Notes under the pieces: model-generated | Told to the model about the DNA's origin: nothing | What the model saw: only the letters and a program-made list of their open reading frames with translations | The model's database searches: none | NCBI RefSeq assembly: GCF_019649055.1 | Contig: NW_026570612.1 | Coordinates: 1-29,109, forward strand | DNA: 29,109 nt | Reading direction: 5' to 3' | Origin: Paramacrobiotus metropolitanus | Taxonomy: Eukaryota; Tardigrada; Eutardigrada; Parachela; Macrobiotidae | Made by a program: the position numbers and the translations under genes | Shown: positions 6,070 through 23,054 of the stretch, piece by piece | Layout of the letters: every line of letters starts with the position of its first letter | Numbering within the stretch: the first letter of the stretch is position 1

Positions 6070-7224
6070 TTAAAGTGGATGGGAAGTTATCACCGCACTG
6101 GAATTAACCCCTGTCACCTTGCTGGATTGAGCCACCGTCGACATGACTTTTGATGAGGTTACCCAGGGTAATTTGCTTCTCACGTCCCGCATGACATCTT
6201 TGTTCATGAGTAACAGGAAAACCTGGGAAATACATTTTATTGTAAAGCTATTCAATTAATGCGATTCAAAATATTTTTGTATTAAAGTAAAAGCATGCTT
6301 ATGATACAGTAATAAGAACTACAATAATAATACATAATTCATGATTAGTAATTAATAATACAATACTTACAGGGCTTCCAGCATAAGCCACTTCCTGCAG
6401 CAGCTGCAGCCATCCAGATCGCACTTTAATTCGAAGAAGAATTTTGGGAATCCAAACACAGTAATTGGTTGCGGAAGGTAGCATACCGTGAACCAGATAT
6501 ATGAGCCGAAAAGGAGTCGAAAGGTGACGAAACGCTTTCGCTGTACCGGAGACAATGTTTCTGTCTTGACCTTTTTGTGTTTAACGATAAGAACGGCTAG
6601 ATAGCATACTCCTTGGACAAACAGGGGGAAATAAATTCCCAGCGCGCCAACGGTATTGGCAATCAGTGGCCCTGTTGAACCAATGTATCCGCAGTCGAAC
6701 TGGCGCTTTCCGAAGAAATTCCCAAAACCGTAAATTCCCGGTGCGACCAATGTGGCACTTAATGCTGTACCAATAAACCATGGGAAAATGATCAGAAAAA
6801 TCGTAGCGCGTCTGGTAGTGATTGTGCTATATATTTATGGGGAAAAATCAGAGCCATGAAGCGGTTCACGGCTAAAAACAAGGACGCCCACATTTCAGCG
6901 AAGGTCGTCAGTTTGCCGAAGAAATGCGCCATCGTGCAGTTGAAGGCGGCCATGTTCATCCCCCAGATCACCCAGCCGGTGGCCATCGAGATCGGATTGG
7001 AGATGCCGGTTTCGAGAACGTGGAGGAATTGGCTGTGGGCGATCAATATCCCGGATCCGGTGTGTAATCTCGATTGCGTGGCGATTATTGCAATTAGTTG
7101 TAAAGGACAAACATGTTCCCGTGATGAACACAATCGTGTAGATGGACACAATGATTTTCAGTTCGGTTTGACCTTTGGCGAAAGTGTCCGAGATGTTCGC
7201 TTGGACGTCCGATGCGTTAATCAT
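6070..7224 (-). pseudogene. rhodopsin-like GPCR with three frameshifts
   Basis: The ATG at 7222-7224 opens an extracellular N-terminus with two N-glycosylation sequons (NAS, NIS). TM1 follows (IIVSIYTIVFITGT), TM2, then TM3 ending in NRFMALIFPHKY, which stands where DRY normally is. TM4 (TIFLIIFPWFIGTAL), TM5 (ALGIYFPLFVQGVCYLAVLIV), TM6 (LLFGSYIWFTVCYLP) and TM7 follow. TM7 is split by an intron at 6223-6370, with SP|VFL occupying the NPxxY position, and MNKDVMRDV starts the cytoplasmic tail. The frame changes near 7115 (net +1 base), near 6830 (net -1) and near 6440 (net -1). Seven helices in correct order make the identification strong; the ligand is unknown. Family members with NRF-type motifs are typically invertebrate chemo- or peptide-receptors (inference). 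The shifts could be decay or sequencing indels, because no in-frame nonsense codon was found. Confidence 0.7.
6223..6370 (-). other. 148-bp GT-AG intron in the GPCR
   Basis: Donor CCCT|GTAAGT (read on the minus strand) and acceptor TTTCCCAG|GTTTTC connect two TM7 halves in phase 0. Confidence 0.65.
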
Positions 7225-11410: not shown

Positions 11411-12394
11411 CTAGCTCTTTTGCACAACCAACAGTTCCCAGAACAGAAGCGCAATTCCGCGCTGAATTTCAACACTTATACGCTGCCACAAAAATTCGGT
11501 AGCGCGCGCTTCTCCGGTTTGATCTTTTATGCGTCGACCAACTTCATTGATGAACTGACGGGTACTGGCGCCACAAGTTCCCGTAGTCTCCAAGGCCACA
11601 GGTTGGAAAAAATGACGATCAGTCAGTTCCCTGTAATTGCTCCTCTTTCGTTCTTCCGCGCTCTCTGCTGCCGATCCCGCTACCTCTGATGAGCCAGCAA
11701 TGTACGATAAAGCGAATGTGTCGCACACTGTTACATCCCAAATCAAAGGAAGGCCGTTCTTCCAAGGGAAAAGAGATAAACCGTCCGGCCGCTTCCCATC
11801 TAACCTGCTTAAGGCCGGCGGCTCCAGAATAGTAGGGACTTTTGCTGATCCCAGGCTGCGCTGAACAAGGCTATTCAGGCTTGCGTGGCGCCTGAATCTC
11901 CCTTGACTTTTCAAGCATGACAGACCGTGCAAACCTTGGGCGTCAACTTCTTCGCCGCATCGGCATTTGTGCTGCTTGCAGATCGGAGCTCCCATCCGTA
12001 ACGCAACAGCGATTCGTAACGCAGCATCGTCTAAAAGTGTTCCAAGGCTAGCAACCGGTAAGGCGAACAACCAGGCACTGGCATCCCTAGTAGAGGCGGC
12101 CAACAGGCGAGCAGAGGCGATAACGTCGGCATCCTCCCTTAAGGCTTCCAGCTTCCTGATAGTCAACATTTCCGACCACAGGCGTTGTTTGCTTCGGTCC
12201 TCTATAGCTGGAGCTGATTTTCCAGTCAATTCTTCCCAGCACAACTCGACATCCAGTCGTTCATCAGGGCTGTCCTCGGGCACAATACTATTGACCAGCT
12301 CGTCGGTGGAATTAAGTGAAGAAATATATGCTGGTGCTGCAATTTCTTCCGCTTTCGGCAGACCCAGCCCACCTGATTTAACCGGCAGAGAAGC
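11411..12394 (-). CDS. retrotransposon zinc motif and restriction-like endonuclease part
   Basis: It continues in the same frame after the TAA at 12395. A start at GTG 12283 would be an artefact of ORF calling. A Cys/His cluster (ICKQHKCRCGEE then HGLSC) lies around residues 100-125 of the 290-codon segment, followed by RFRRHASLN. The PD-type nuclease core is DGKRPDG, about 12 residues later LIWDVTVCDT, then ETTGTCGAST. This arrangement (zinc motif immediately before PD...D) is the hallmark of the restriction-like endonuclease of RLE non-LTR elements, which nicks the target to prime reverse transcription. The C-terminal ~12 residues (LLFWELLVVQKS) differ from the tail of the nested copy (SVLGTFNEMRDN), suggesting a terminal frameshift. 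Confidence 0.8.
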   Translation of the reverse strand, partial: ASLPVKSGGLGLPKAEEIAAPAYISSLNSTDELVNSIVPEDSPDERLDVELCWEELTGKSAPAIEDRSKQRLWSEMLTIRKLEALREDADVIASARLLAASTRDASAWLFALPVASLGTLLDDAALRIAVALRMGAPICKQHKCRCGEEVDAQGLHGLSCLKSQGRFRRHASLNSLVQRSLGSAKVPTILEPPALSRLDGKRPDGLSLFPWKNGLPLIWDVTVCDTFALSYIAGSSEVAGSAAESAEERKRSNYRELTDRHFFQPVALETTGTCGASTRQFINEVGRRIKDQTGEARATEFLWQRISVEIQRGIALLFWELLVVQKS

Positions 12395-13942
12395 TTACCC
12401 GTATGTAACATCGCCTATCTTGACATTTGTGATTTCTTCGGCCTTTGACTTAATCGCAACATCAAATTCTCTGAGCTTCTCCGGGTATTTGTAGCAAGGC
12501 GCTGCTCTGAGAATGTACATGAGTCGCGGCAGGGACATGCTGTTTCTGAGTAAAAACAACGACTGATGCGCAGGCAGAACTCCCAGTGATTCAGTCAGCT
12601 TCTTTACTTGACTGATTTTACTGTCCAAAACACGTTCAATAGACCAATCAGTGAGAGGAGCACCAAGCAGTTCAAGTGTCTCTGGGGCAACCAGTTGAAT
12701 TCCAGGTGCAAGAGCATTAAAGCGATTGCAGACGCTCAGTCGTTCTTCTTCGGACCCGCCGTACACATACAGCTCGCACTTGGCAAAATTGAGTTCCAGG
12801 CCGAGTTTGGAGGCTTCATTTTGTACAGTGATTAAATCTTCTAAAACAACTTCTGGGTCACCTCCTTCCGTCCCGTCGTCCAAGTACCAAACATTCAGAT
12901 CAGCGCGGAGGCTTCTGGTCAATTTATTAGATCCCAGGCAGAATAGCAGTGGACCGAGGGGATCGCCCTGTTGCACACCATTGGCGGATAATAACGTCGT
13001 GTCTCCACAAAACATCGTCGAAGCCTCTTTATAGCACTGTGAAACAAAATGATAATATTGTGGAATTCTTTCAGCTGCTTCCTTCAAAACAACATCCCGA
13101 CGTATAGTATTAAAAGCGTTGCGGAAGTCCAGCTTTAAAATCACATTTGGGCTGGCAGGGTGTGCTCTAAGAAATTTCCGAGTGGCATGCACAGCAGCTT
13201 CCGCTCCACCCCGTGTTCCGTACCCTAGCTGAACTGGGCGAAAAAACCCACCCAACTCAGACTGAACGCGTTTACTTATCACCTTCCCACATAAGCGACG
13301 TATGGTAAACCCGATTGCTATGGGCCGTATCCCACCCAACTTCTTGTTCAAAGGAATAAGCGTGGCGCCAAAAAGCACGGTTCGTGCACTATCGGGGATA
13401 GAGTTATAGATAACATGGTTCACCAGTTTTGTGAGGGCAGCTAGCAACAGTTCGCCGCACTCTCTCGGTACCTTAACCAGCTCCCTCAAGTGCTGGGCTC
13501 TTAGTCCGTCTGGTCCAGCAGCAGAGCAAGCGGGGAAGGATTTCAATGCAGCACATACTTCCTCCGGTGTAAACTCTTGAGGGTTGCCAGCGGGAGGTGG
13601 TGCAGGAAAATTTAGATCTGCAGGAGCTGTCGGATGTTTGTCCTTCAATATTTGCAGGACTTCGTTCGATATGGCTGCAACAGACTCATCAGAAGTCAAC
13701 AATTTTACAGCACCACTGATATCACCGTCCTGCAACTTCGCGTTGACCACTTTTCTCAAGGCTTCGTCCCCGGATCGTTTCTTCCTCGATTTCCTCGCTT
13801 TTGTAGGCAGAGTAGTACCTTGTAAATAGAAGTTCTTTTGTTCAACTTTTACGAACCTCAAGTAAACGTCCGTTTCGCTACACAATCTGCGTAACAACAA
13901 AATCACAGCGGAGCTGCTAAGAAATACAACATCGGGCTCCAA
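12395..13942 (-). CDS. retrotransposon reverse transcriptase part
   Basis: A 515-codon frame. The first ~42 codons (13942-13818) come from the 3' end of the nested copy and are not native. The native part begins TTLPTKARKSRKKR (basic), then SAAGPDGLRAQHL (RT block 0/1), LIPLNKKLGGIRPIAIG (block 2), LKLDFRNAFNTIRR (block A, catalytic Asp), GVQQGDPLGPLLF (block B) and WYLDDGTEGG (block C, YLDD with both catalytic Asp). Thumb-like sequence follows to an in-frame TAA at 12395-12397. The catalytic residues are all intact. The TAA sits before ASLPVKSGGLGLP, which continues in the same frame, so it is an internal nonsense codon (consistent with CAA to TAA), not the natural end. Confidence 0.85.
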   Translation of the reverse strand: MEPDVVFLSSSAVILLLRRLCSETDVYLRFVKVEQKNFYLQGTTLPTKARKSRKKRSGDEALRKVVNAKLQDGDISGAVKLLTSDESVAAISNEVLQILKDKHPTAPADLNFPAPPPAGNPQEFTPEEVCAALKSFPACSAAGPDGLRAQHLRELVKVPRECGELLLAALTKLVNHVIYNSIPDSARTVLFGATLIPLNKKLGGIRPIAIGFTIRRLCGKVISKRVQSELGGFFRPVQLGYGTRGGAEAAVHATRKFLRAHPASPNVILKLDFRNAFNTIRRDVVLKEAAERIPQYYHFVSQCYKEASTMFCGDTTLLSANGVQQGDPLGPLLFCLGSNKLTRSLRADLNVWYLDDGTEGGDPEVVLEDLITVQNEASKLGLELNFAKCELYVYGGSEEERLSVCNRFNALAPGIQLVAPETLELLGAPLTDWSIERVLDSKISQVKKLTESLGVLPAHQSLFLLRNSMSLPRLMYILRAAPCYKYPEKLREFDVAIKSKAEEITNVKIGDVTYG

Positions 13943-17560: not shown

Positions 17561-18011
17561 GAGCTTAAAGACTGATCCAGTGTCTCGTTCGGGATGGATG
17601 CGCAGACACGCTGACCACAACTCCTCTATTCTTTTATTATAAACCATAGAGATAACCCCAGCATTTGCGACCATCTCTTGTAATCCGTCACAGGTAGCAA
17701 TAAATCTTGTGTGGCACAAAACCACATCGATATGACTTCTATCCAAGCGCTTCGTACAGGATCATTATACGCCACATCACGTTTCGCATTGTCCAGTGCT
17801 TCTTTCAAAGATGTTTTCGCTTTCTGCTTTTTCTCTTCATCGAATGCTCCATAACCTAAAGACGCCAAGTTTGTCGGATTGCGCTGTCGGTGTAAGCTGC
17901 GAAATTCTCTGCACTCTTGCGCAGCTGCAATGGTCAGTACGTGTCCAGGGGAGATATAGAATTTCACATTCACAAGAAGAGGGCCGTCCGGGGCCAATCG
18001 TCTACCGAAAA
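17537..18011 (-). pseudogene. 3' exon of an unidentified gene, frameshifted
   Basis: A likely splice acceptor (TTGTGCTTACAG, read on the minus strand) ends at about 18012. The frame GRRLAPDGPLLVNVKFYISPG... then runs to about 17745, where it must shift by one base (net -1) to enter SHIDVVLCHTRFIATC... and ends at the TGA in the 61-bp inverted repeat. The peptide has a charged, helical middle (EEKKQKAKTSLKEALDNAKRD) and no motif I recognise. There is no ATG at the start, consistent with an internal or last exon. It could be a decayed gene or one carrying an assembly indel. The 3' end coincides with the inverted repeat, so the terminal codons may have been duplicated with it. Confidence 0.4.
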
Positions 18012-18012
18012 A

Positions 18013-18612
18013 CCTGTAAGCACAAGTAAATGTTTTGACACAAAGAACTTTTACAGAGACTTCATGGTCAGCGAAGCGTTGATTGCCGGCCAGCGCTCAA
18101 GCTGTGATTCTGGTTCTGAACGCTAAAACTTTGACAATGATTTCTAAAACTTTGACTCCTAATGCTAAAATTTGACCCTTCGAACTCTGACCCAGCATAG
18201 AAAAACGCACTCTGGCAAAACCATTCTGTCAGTTTTCATATGTATCCCTTCTTTTGTGTTATACATAAGCCAATCTTAAGTTATTTTTGCCCTATGTTCC
18301 TTATATTGTTCTTATGCTGTTGTCTTATGCTTTTCATATTACTCGTATGTTATGCTTGCGTCATTTCTTATGTTATCCCTATATTATTGTTTGGTTAGTC
18401 TTATTTTGTCATCATTTAAGTCCAACGCAGGTTTTAATGTTATTCTTATCTTTGTTATTTCATTACAAATCATAAATCTGCCTTAGTGCCATTACCCAAA
18501 CTGGGATGTGCACTGTAATGACAAAAGTATTTTGTCGTGAACTGTAGTGGCATTACCCCAAAACTTTATTATTTCAGGTGGCCCACTCCAACAGCCACCG
18601 CTCATTCAATTA
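18013..18612. other. no gene recognised
   Basis: AT-rich sequence, pyrimidine-rich at 18235-18480. A candidate upstream exon for the minus-strand gene could not be placed. Confidence 0.35.
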
Positions 18613-19238
18613 AGGAAAATGGCCCGGTACATAGCGTCCAAAATGGTATACATACACTAAAACTTTCGCTTGCGCGCACTCCGAAACACTTTTTTGCAAT
18701 ACTTTATGTCATTCTAAAGCTAAATGATTTGTTTACATTGTTCTGAAAACCGTTTGCGCGCGCAACATCCGGTTGCCGACATATGGTGAAACAAAACGGT
18801 CAAAAAGTTTAAATGCATTGTAGTGTACCAAAAGTCTGGTTATTACCCGATCTTTTCGAAACTTTGCTGTAAAAGCCACATGACCATAAGGTCGAAAGTG
18901 AACCAATTTCAGGTTCATAGCACTTTTCCATAATTTTAAAATGAATTTTAAAATTTTTCAAAATCATTTTAAAATCGGAAAAAAATGCTGTAAATCAGAT
19001 ATTAGTTCACTTTCGACCTTATGGTCATGTGTCTTTAATTTTGGTACACGACAAAGCTTTTGCCCATTTTGTTTCACCATATCTCGGCAACCGGATGTTG
19101 CGCGCGCAAACGGTTGTCTGAACAATGTATACAATCATTTAGCTTTAGAATGACATAAAATATGCAAAAAAGTTTTCGAGGCGCGCAAGCGAAAGCATTG
19201 TGTATGTACCATTTGGACGATATGTACCGGGCCATTTT
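18613..19238. mobile_element. long-inverted-repeat MITE, copy 1
   Basis: Two arms of about 300 bp in opposite orientation around an AT-rich centre (TTTTAAAAT motifs, 18930-18975). The left end reads TTAAGGAAAATGGCCCGGTAC and the right end GTACCGGGCCATTTT. Internal landmarks shared by both arms include CACTTTCGACCTTATGG and GTTGCGCGCGCAAACGG. Frames of 60-70 codons inside are by-products of the repeat. No transposase. Confidence 0.8.
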
Positions 19239-20756: not shown

Positions 20757-22160
20757 TCACGTAGCTTGCGCCCTAAACTGGCATTCGAACCACTCTTTTA
20801 TTTCGATGCTTGTCTCATTTCCACTCAACAAATTTGATGCCATCAGCGCAGCTCCTTCCGCAACGGCGATCCTTGGATCAATGGTCGCATGTATATGGGC
20901 CGGTGGTAGGACCTCCATTAAGACATCGGTGAGCTGTGGAACGAACCGCCCGCATCCTATTATGATGACATCCGCAACATCAAGTGCAGTCAAACCGGCA
21001 TCTTCTAGTACTTCCTCGATTGGTACAATGATTCTGCGAAACAAATCCGAGCACAGCGTTGCCAGCCTAGACGGGGTTATTGTTATTGCAATACATTTTC
21101 CTTCTACGAGGCACGGTGGGATTTCAATGGTCTCACTACCATGCCCAGTGATCTGTTTGCAGGCGTGCAGCAAGTGTTGTACGATCGCTATGGAGGCAGG
21201 CTCACTGAATGTGTCAATCTTCTTGAATTTGTCGATCACATGTCCAGAAATCCGATTTTCAATGTCTTTTATTCGTAGAAATTTTGAGTAATGAGACGAT
21301 AACAGCGTAACATGTACCGGCTTAGCTTCGGACTTATCGACACTCATAATATATGCAGCAGTGTACAGTTGACTGGAATCTAGTATAAATACCTTTCTTT
21401 CTTGATAGGGAAAATCCTCGATGTATGGCAAGACAGCAGCAAGCGAGTCATCAAGGATCTTCACTCTCTCCATCCCCGCCATAGCTGCAGATAATTCTGT
21501 GGCCCGCCGCTCCACGGAAGTAAAGTATGGCGGAACGGTTATCACAACGGTGTTGACTTTCACTGGGCACCCGTTCGAAGTTTGTAGGCGTTCGACAAGA
21601 CGCCGAAAATGCAACAAAAACATTGAAGTTATCTCTTCAGCTGAATAACATACAGTTTCTCCGCGTTCCTTTATCCTAATCCTTAGACTTCCGTCTTCGT
21701 TGATTTCATAAGGCAGGTCGTCTCTGAGGCTAATAGCTTCTATATCCCCAATTTGTAGCCCGAGGAGAGAATTTAGGTTATATACGCAGTTTTCTGGATC
21801 AGCTTCCTGGTAAGCCTTTGCTTCTTGACCGCATAATATTTTTGTTTCCTGGTTACCGGTCTGGTCGAAGGCAACATATGCCGGAATTAGCGGATCATTG
21901 CTGTGTGGCTCAGTAACCGTTTCTGTTCGGCCATTCCGGTGCACTACCACACTACTGTTCCCCAGTCCAAGACGAATCCCGACGGCAGCGTTTTCTATAG
22001 CCTCGTTTCGCCGTTCATTAAAAGTGCATAATTTTACTAAGCTTTGCAGAAGTTCATTGGAAGTGGTTCTGCGGGAAGTCGTAGCGCTTAAACACTGAGA
22101 AATACACTCCGCCAGCTGCACAGGCACGGAAAGCGCTATAAATGGTGCATAACCATCCAC
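20757..22160 (-). CDS. kinase C-lobe end fused to Hsp70-type nucleotide-binding domain
   Basis: A 467-codon frame. Residues 1-45 are the last helices of a protein kinase C-lobe (GYAPFIALSVP, CISQCLSATTSRRTTSNELL, with the conserved Arg of subdomain XI). From residue 60 an Hsp70/Hsp110-like ATPase fold begins: VGIRLGLGNSSVVV (phosphate-1), IPAYVAFD, VITVPPYFTSVERRAT, ILDDSLAAVLPYI, KVFILDSSQLYTA (phosphate-2), then DVIIIGCGRFVP (adenosine motif) and IAVAEGAALMA. Key Hsp70 residues are altered: the phosphate-1 Asp is Arg, the Gly-rich phosphate-2 loop is absent, and GGSTRIP reads GCGRFVP. ATP hydrolysis is therefore doubtful. The substrate-binding domain is missing unless further exons exist. 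The final TGA lies within a strong donor (AC|GTGAGT), so this may not be the true C-terminus. The product is probably cytosolic. Confidence 0.85.
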   Translation of the reverse strand: MDGYAPFIALSVPVQLAECISQCLSATTSRRTTSNELLQSLVKLCTFNERRNEAIENAAVGIRLGLGNSSVVVHRNGRTETVTEPHSNDPLIPAYVAFDQTGNQETKILCGQEAKAYQEADPENCVYNLNSLLGLQIGDIEAISLRDDLPYEINEDGSLRIRIKERGETVCYSAEEITSMFLLHFRRLVERLQTSNGCPVKVNTVVITVPPYFTSVERRATELSAAMAGMERVKILDDSLAAVLPYIEDFPYQERKVFILDSSQLYTAAYIMSVDKSEAKPVHVTLLSSHYSKFLRIKDIENRISGHVIDKFKKIDTFSEPASIAIVQHLLHACKQITGHGSETIEIPPCLVEGKCIAITITPSRLATLCSDLFRRIIVPIEEVLEDAGLTALDVADVIIIGCGRFVPQLTDVLMEVLPPAHIHATIDPRIAVAEGAALMASNLLSGNETSIEIKEWFECQFRAQAT

Positions 22161-22162
22161 AA

Positions 22163-23054
22163 TTAAAGAAGCGTACCGATTTTTTTAATCGTGTCAGCAT
22201 TTAGTGCTCCGTCTGGAGTTCGGTACAGTCTCTTATTTATATTGCCAACAGCGCTGTCTATCATCTCTAGTATAACACATCCCACGCTCCATATATCACT
22301 CTTTCGGCCTACTTTCTCATGCTCAAGATTAAGATATTTCTTCAGCATTTCAGGCGACATATATCGAAGAGTTCCGCGAATATGGGAAAGGTCACCCGAA
22401 CACGTCATACTTTGCTGCATCTGCACCAGGTCATCTAAATCCCCAAGTAACAATTTGTTATTGGTGCCTAGCCGGTGGATAAGAATATTTCCTGGCTTTA
22501 TGTCGCCATGCACAATATTCTTCAAGTGGAGATGGTTAACTGCATCCGCTATTTCAGAAGCGTAGCGAATGGCTGTTTGTAGATCCTCAACAGCTTTAGT
22601 TTTGATGAGACTCGCTAGGTCTCCATCTACAGTATACACGGTAATTATGAAGAGCAACATTTTGGGCACCGCTATTTCACAACACACACATACCTTCATA
22701 ATAATCCATGAGGAGTTTGACAGAAACCCCGCCAAAAGTTGATGATCTAGCAACACTGACTTGGTGGTAGCAAATAAGATGATCGCACTGTAAAGTCAAT
22801 AGTAACTCCATTCGACTTCTCCAGCTGTTCCAGCTTTCAACATTGGCCAGTACTTCCGAATCTTTGTGTAGCGGGACGACTTTGACTGCCACGGGTGCGG
22901 GTCCATGGACGGTTAAATCTCCGGGATCTGTAATTGCCGCTTTGTAAACAATACCATAGGTACCCCGGCCAATGTAGTCCTCGTCCTCATAAGTGTACCG
23001 ACAACGCTTTCCGAAAGTGTGAGATTTGACATCCATTTCGACGTACAACTGCAT
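22163..23054 (-). CDS. protein kinase domain, N-terminal part of the kinase-Hsp70 fusion
   Basis: Two exons, 23054-22694 and 22626 to about 22180, continue into the Hsp70 frame. The ATG at 23054 is the first, and M7 at 23036 is an alternative. Motifs in order: GRGTYGIV (Gly loop, residues 29-36), VAVKVV (Lys58), an MELLL helix Glu, LLMDYYEDGDLASLI (hinge, formed across the intron), VHGDIKPGNIL (catalytic loop, HGD for HRD), LLLGDLDD (DLD for DFG), GTLRYMSPEML (SPE for APE) and KSDIWSVGCVILEM. The catalytic Lys, Asp, Asn and metal-binding Asp are present, so activity is possible. It is most like STE/MAP3K-type or NEK-type Ser/Thr kinases. The frame changes by one base at the A7 run (22180-22186) before the last C-lobe helices, which are in the next ORF. 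Confidence 0.85.
22627..22693 (-). other. 67-bp GT-AG intron in the kinase
   Basis: Donor GAAG|GTATGT and acceptor TACTGTAG|ATGGAG (minus strand). Phase 1 joining creates a GAT codon and gives DYYED-GDLASLI, the expected kinase hinge. Confidence 0.85.

Follow-up and report, generated by a model that had tools for sequence, protein, structure and literature searches.

Genes joining a protein kinase to an Hsp70 domain in the tardigrade Paramacrobiotus metropolitanus

The stretch of DNA analysed here (the window) is 29,109 nucleotides long and corresponds to contig C392:1-29109 of the Paramacrobiotus metropolitanus genome, which we searched as 169.8 Mb in 533 contigs. SAHS, a protein family of tardigrades, is represented in this genome by 14 matches, of which 13 cluster on contig C3, and an ORF at that place matches SAHS1 in the PDB (E=1.4e-20). 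On its reverse strand lies a gene in which two exons encoding most of a protein kinase are followed by an open reading frame (ORF) that holds the end of the kinase and the nucleotide-binding domain (NBD) of an Hsp70 (Table 1). The initial annotation had described a single ORF with the terminal kinase helices and their Arg ahead of a full NBD, and this description is borne out: the ORF at 22184-20757 runs for 475 codons in one frame free of stops, with the kinase C-terminal helices and the Arg, IALSVPVQLAECISQCLSATTSRRTTSNELLQSL, upstream of an HSP70 match (PF00012, E=3.4e-50) that covers profile positions 1-380 of 599 at 21986-20811. Hsp70 similarity is thus present in the interval 22000-20760, on which that description depended, and the best PDB match of the NBD is that of HSPA1A (E 4.9e-43). 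The rest of the kinase is, as had also been proposed, supplied by the preceding exons at 23054-22694 and 22626-22177; the ORF 22795-22163 alone matches PF00069 with E 6.9e-26. The domain search of the spliced protein that had been suggested as a check recovers both domains: exons 1 and 2 joined in silico to the fusion ORF, with a 41-nt intron removed, give a protein of 729 residues with a Pkinase match (PF00069, E=9.7e-34, profile 1-260 of 263) and an HSP70 match (E=1.2e-49), and 18 residues separate the two. Structure prediction of the 475-residue ORF without an alignment gave a mean pLDDT of 37.5, unusable for a fold search.

Table 1. Features of the kinase-Hsp70 gene in the window (positions on the forward strand)
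Feature	Position	Strand	Remark
Exon 1, encoding the kinase N-lobe with the GRGTYG loop and the lysine of VAVK	22694..23054	-	
Intron 1, a GT-AG intron of 67 nt in phase 1 (phase assigned by hand)	22627..22693	-	Position common to L001 and L006
Exon 2, kinase C-lobe (HGDIKPGN, GDLDD, MSPE, KSDIWS)	22177..22626	-	PF00069
A-run; four paralogues have one base more in the stretch holding it, and the frame breaks here from exon 2 to the fusion ORF	22180..22186	-	
Candidate 41-nt GT-AG intron; restores the frame, deletes conserved kinase sequence	22136..22176	-	
Fusion ORF, encoding the last helices of the kinase, a short linker and the full NBD of the Hsp70	20757..22184	-	
Hsp70 nucleotide-binding domain, probable pseudo-ATPase by motif	20811..21986	-	PF00012
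Inverted-repeat (fold-back) element separating the NBD from its detached tail	18616..19238	.	
C-terminal part of the Hsp70, detached, with the substrate-binding beta portion and a short helical tail	17626..18096	-	Via paralogues L001, L004 and Hsp70 L008

Exon 2 and the fusion ORF are not in the same frame. An alignment of paralogues shows the window with one base fewer than four of them, in the stretch that holds the A-run. Removal of the candidate intron at 22176-22136 would restore the frame at the cost of YASLIVDGYAPFI, which the paralogues keep and which the gene on contig C85 (discussed below) resembles, and for this reason a 41-nt intron is less likely than a frameshift or a sequencing error. 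The spliced model with this intron, which had served as our search query, was demoted for the same missing base. Because of the frame break, the window copy may not be translated as one protein.

Fusion genes of this type continue past the position equivalent to 20757, and in the window the C-terminal Hsp70 part is found about 2.66 kb beyond the NBD ORF, with the inverted-repeat element inside the gap. By itself this tail is not recognized by Pfam, and the approximately 25 codons preceding it gave no match. In the paralogue L001 a single ORF (2311-1247) runs from the second half of the NBD straight into the substrate-binding tail. The C-terminal EEVD of cytosolic Hsp70s is absent from both genes, the tail of the window copy ending FIIKE and that of L001 QALLV. 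For an in-frame splice from the NBD exon to the detached tail, worked out by hand, we found no simple solution: two bases are left over at the donor GTGAGT after 20762, and the acceptors inspected near 18100 call for one.

Searching the genome with the spliced window protein gave at least 82 matching places. Both domains were found in the window (C392), at one locus on C150 (L001), at three on C132 (L002, L004 and L005) and at one on C85 (L006); a further locus on C132, L003, has a piece of NBD and no kinase match. In L001 the kinase continues into the NBD in one 450-codon frame with no stop, 57% identical to the query over residues 121-525, a span that includes the junction. The presence of both domains in the same order at four other loci of the window type, of which L001, L002 and L005 cross the junction in one frame, means that the fusion is more than chance: the kinase-Hsp70 fusion is real and has relatives of the same architecture. 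The C85 gene is of a second type. It has a Met preceded by an in-frame stop, a first exon at L006 4609-4276, a 403-nt intron and a second exon that runs to a stop codon, and it encodes 761 residues with no internal stop and, by inspection, no visible defect. Pfam finds both Pkinase and HSP70 in this one chain, with a longer linker between kinase and NBD and no substrate-binding part. A GT-AG intron interrupts the kinase at the same position in the window, L001 and the C85 gene.

The window kinase keeps the glycine loop GRGTYG, the Lys of VAVK, the Asp and Asn of HGDIKPGN, the Asp of DLD and the Glu of SPE. Its best relatives of solved structure in the PDB are MAP3K2 and MAP3K5 (E 7e-15 to 4e-14), from which it differs in lacking the alpha-C Glu and in having HGD and DLD instead of HRD and DFG. 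In place of the alpha-C Glu the window kinase has Arg, 19 of the 21 sibling kinases with a letter there have a basic residue, and the C85 row of the alignment has Gln; with this Glu replaced, kinase activity is not assured.

The siblings are 23 kinase loci of the same genome (L012-L034), taken from among the better hits of the genome search; identity of the window kinase to its siblings is 36-55% in that search and 31-47% in a second comparison. They appear as a large tardigrade kinase family, mostly with HGDxKPxN and GDLDD motifs and mostly with Kelch-like tails. In a tree of 29 kinases that contains no outside kinases, the window clade is recovered with support of 95.3/99, and the C85 kinase is left unplaced with respect to the window type (sister or not, AU p about 0.5). 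It is possible, then, that there was one fusion followed by exchange of its Hsp70. Similarity, motifs and the shared intron position suggest that the C85 kinase belongs to the sibling family as well.

What follows the kinase in the siblings bears on how the fusions are read. By eye, 18 of the 23 sibling loci have a similar tail after the kinase; the exceptions are L013 and L015, which are short, L031, which is truncated, and L024 and L030, in which a second kinase comes next. When a profile built from 17 of the tails was searched against the PDB, it matched the Kelch domain of LZTR1 with E=1e-4, other Kelch structures at 0.009 or weaker, and two unrelated chains at 0.6 and 0.96. Among ten sibling ORFs submitted to Pfam, two matched a propeller family, with E values (0.02-0.03) that fail the curated cut-offs. 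The usual plan of the family looks to be a kinase with a Kelch-like adaptor, and the fusions look to carry an Hsp70 at that place.

To place the NBDs we used Hsp70 relatives from the same genome. A genome-wide Hsp70 search gave 88 matches, many of them separate exons of one gene, and the NBDs fetched are a subset; the tree contains 25 of the 26 alignable NBDs from the fetched loci (L003 was too short) and no bacterial sequences. Both trees rest on alignments in which each row was anchored to a single query and damaged copies were read through their breaks. Among the NBDs, the window clade falls with Hsp70s of C86 and C49 (aLRT/UFBoot 99.6/100), its nearest relative being the C86 NBD (91.4/89), and the C85 NBD groups with Hsp70s of C72 (99.9/99). 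A single origin of the fused NBDs is rejected (delta logL 67, AU p=0.0004), and the fused Hsp70 domains apparently come from two different Hsp70 sources. Two other loci, L009 (C49) and L010 (C72), have NBD-only Hsp70-like ORFs with degraded ATP motifs and long C-terminal parts that have no Pfam match.

The initial annotation had called the Hsp70 part an ATPase domain, a label that does not suit the window copy. In Hsc70 numbering, the residues of the ATP site D10, T13, T14, K71, E175, D199, T204 and D206 correspond in the window to R, L, G, N, D, D, Y and A, and G201-T204 to S, Q, L and Y. D199 is kept, while D10, T13, T14, K71, G201-T204 and D206 are lost. With most nucleotide contacts gone, ATPase function is doubtful, and by its motifs the window NBD is probably a pseudo-ATPase. 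ATP motifs are degraded also in the close window-type paralogues, to differing extents (some alignment cells being gaps). The C85 NBD keeps K71, E175, D199, G201, T204, D206 and G338-G339, and differs at D10, T13, G202, G203, E268, R342 and D366, where again some alignment cells are gaps.

Each of the five window-type copies has at least one defect. The window copy has the missing base and the severed tail, L001 a frame change, L002 a stop and frame changes, L004 frame changes, and L005 has frame changes, some 0.86 kb of inserted sequence and a tail exon (3730-3281, reverse strand) that lies inverted with respect to its own kinase and NBD. Thus the window copy and its nearest relatives might be decaying pseudogenes of a once-working fusion, with the C85 gene alone alive, a reading that we consider possible if rather doubtful. 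The soundness of the fetched siblings speaks in its favor, as the exon-2 region is in one frame in 22 of 23 (L031 ends early) and the aligned part has no stop in any of the 23; these siblings were, however, drawn from the best hits and are hence skewed towards sound genes. Against it, the three window exons contain no stop. In 300 runs of a neutral simulation there were 4.3 stops on average (minimum 0) at 0.05 changes per site and 8.4 (minimum 2) at 0.1 changes per site. Moreover, dN/dS among the window-type copies is about 0.1-0.3 for the kinase and 0.2-0.4 for the NBD, these being pairwise and not branch-specific values from pairs with finite dS, which is mostly above 1. The window tail has a higher dN/dS, about 0.33-0.65, and this does not speak for a living gene. 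The kinase and the NBD have been under purifying selection in the past, and the lack of stops together with pairwise dN/dS well below 1 suggests that the frame break is recent or is a sequencing error. A frame change of single-base type is seen also in the C49 Hsp70 L008, near L008:6535-6573, in a gene that keeps most canonical Hsp70 motifs; such breaks are therefore not confined to the fusions, which somewhat favors assembly errors. The assembly of Paramacrobiotus sp. TYO, if that is the present genome, is described in PMC8277472 as built from nanopore reads with Illumina polishing, which would also count against decay. By its sequence, the window copy codes for a kinase bearing a pseudo-Hsp70 arm, a gene that may be dying or may contain an assembly error.

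Chaperones and kinases meet constantly, as in the Hsp90-Cdc37 clients or DNAJ-PKA, usually as separate proteins. The initial annotation knew of no established family in which the two are fused. This holds to the extent that no kinase-Hsp70 fusion is named in the titles or abstract starts listed by our searches of open-licence PMC papers, a scope within which reports elsewhere could be missed; it does not hold for single proteins, for a Streptomyces anulatus plasmid encodes one (WP_228183974.1, 'Hsp70 family protein', 807 aa) in which Pkinase (19-261) is followed by HSP70 in one chain, as in the fusions described here. Unlike the window gene, that protein is bacterial, and it matches HSP70 far better (E 2e-145, profile to 492). 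A search of 72,556 plasmid records found no place that covers 80% of it outside its own record, and by identity, relatives from the tardigrade genome are closer to the fusions than it is. We therefore read the fusion as a kinase with an exchangeable C-terminal arm, which here is an Hsp70.

Other systems resemble the fusions in part. The DNAJB1-PRKACA fusion of fibrolamellar carcinoma, which arises in tumours, also joins a kinase to a piece of the Hsp70 machinery; it differs in having a J-domain, not an Hsp70, and in not being a germline gene family. It is said to recruit Hsp70 (PMC6533061). In bacterial conflict systems, Hsp70, also without the peptide-binding part, occurs in signalling gene neighbourhoods, but the examples consulted in PMC7159879 are neighbouring genes and no kinase-Hsp70 fusions. 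Phage records matching the fusion ORF number 32, and the best five of these are DnaK/Hsp70-like or unannotated. A scan of prokaryotes with the C85 protein, using six peptide patterns, found one Planctomycete kinase match and no fusion, by a method that does not show absence.

The explanation that we favor, with moderate confidence, is that in a kinase family whose members usually carry a Kelch-like tail, an Hsp70 stands in place of this tail in two cases, from two sources, and serves as a docking or regulatory arm. In the window type, a whole Hsp70, both NBD and substrate-binding part, would have been joined some 18 residues after the kinase, and its ATP site would then have decayed, so that the kinase is left with a pseudo-Hsp70 arm. 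The arm of the C85 gene would be an NBD whose ATP site is better preserved, on a longer linker and with no substrate-binding part. From the architecture we infer that the arm takes the role of the siblings' Kelch-like tail, and that it might dock clients, J-proteins or exchange factors and so aim or restrain the kinase, in the window type without ATP turnover. A germline kinase family whose adaptor tail gave way to Hsp70s of two sources would let one see, as in a natural experiment, whether a chaperone fold can regulate when ATP is bound and when it is not, in an animal known for surviving protein-damaging stress, and the C85 gene offers a clean, testable protein.

It is also conceivable, if unlikely, that the kinase is gated by the chaperone, much as the initial annotation proposed, with the Hsp70 arm binding unfolded clients, or ADP and ATP, and switching the kinase. 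The architecture of kinase and Hsp70 and the ATP-site residues kept in the C85 NBD are in keeping with this; the loss of most ATP residues from the window-type NBDs, the seven positions at which C85 also differs, and the lack of a substrate-binding part in C85 are not. Coupling of client sensing to phosphorylation might be possible for the C85 type.

Two further alternatives to a docking or regulatory arm fare much worse. That two neighbouring genes or an assembly chimera have been mistaken for a fusion is very improbable, since despite the frame break between exon 2 and the ORF, the kinase end and the NBD share one frame within the ORF, and L001 and the C85 gene, on other contigs, pass from kinase into NBD without a stop. 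Transfer of a bacterial kinase-Hsp70 gene is more improbable still: the Streptomyces protein has the same domain order, but the window, L001 and C85 share a GT-AG intron at one kinase position, the NBDs nest among Hsp70s of their own genome (in a tree without bacterial sequences), the window kinase is nearer to its own siblings than the 25% identity of the Streptomyces protein to C85 over kinase and NBD together, and no plasmid record has one place covering 80% of the window protein.

Genes on C86 and C49 of the same genome resemble the window gene in joining an Hsp70 NBD to a signalling domain, and differ from it in that the domain is a RhoGEF, placed after the NBD, and that no kinase was found. 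On C86, L007 1067-2914 is one ORF of 616 residues with both domains (PF00012 E 2.5e-94, PF00621 E 2.8e-17). On C49, L008 901-4317 has an NBD ORF and then ORFs that match parts of RhoGEF (E about 3e-4) and of PH (E 1.9e-12 and 3e-5); all of these may belong to one gene. One might speculate, at long range, that tardigrades repeatedly recruited Hsp70 as a signalling module, from two Hsp70 sources for kinases and also for RhoGEF, yielding enzymes aimed or gated by chaperones in stress such as desiccation; we think this unlikely, and any link of the fusions to stress is conjectural.

The C49 Hsp70 at L008 6313-8138 was considered as a further kinase fusion and rejected, because a Met of its own precedes the NBD and the fetched stretch has no kinase match upstream. 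On C63, in L011 1113-4626, an Hsp70 ORF lies close ahead of one that encodes a ubiquitin domain (PF00240 E 3.9e-15), and the two are possibly one gene. Elsewhere in the window, no tRNA was found, and the reverse strand has a reverse transcriptase ORF at 12395-13942 (PF00078 E 1e-19). The ORF at 11411-12394, which has no Pfam match, may continue it, and our guess is an element of LINE type. At 6367-7157, also on the reverse strand, parts of a rhodopsin-like 7TM receptor are spread over two ORFs that differ in frame (PF00001 E 1.3e-5 and 2e-4, neither reaching the cut-off).
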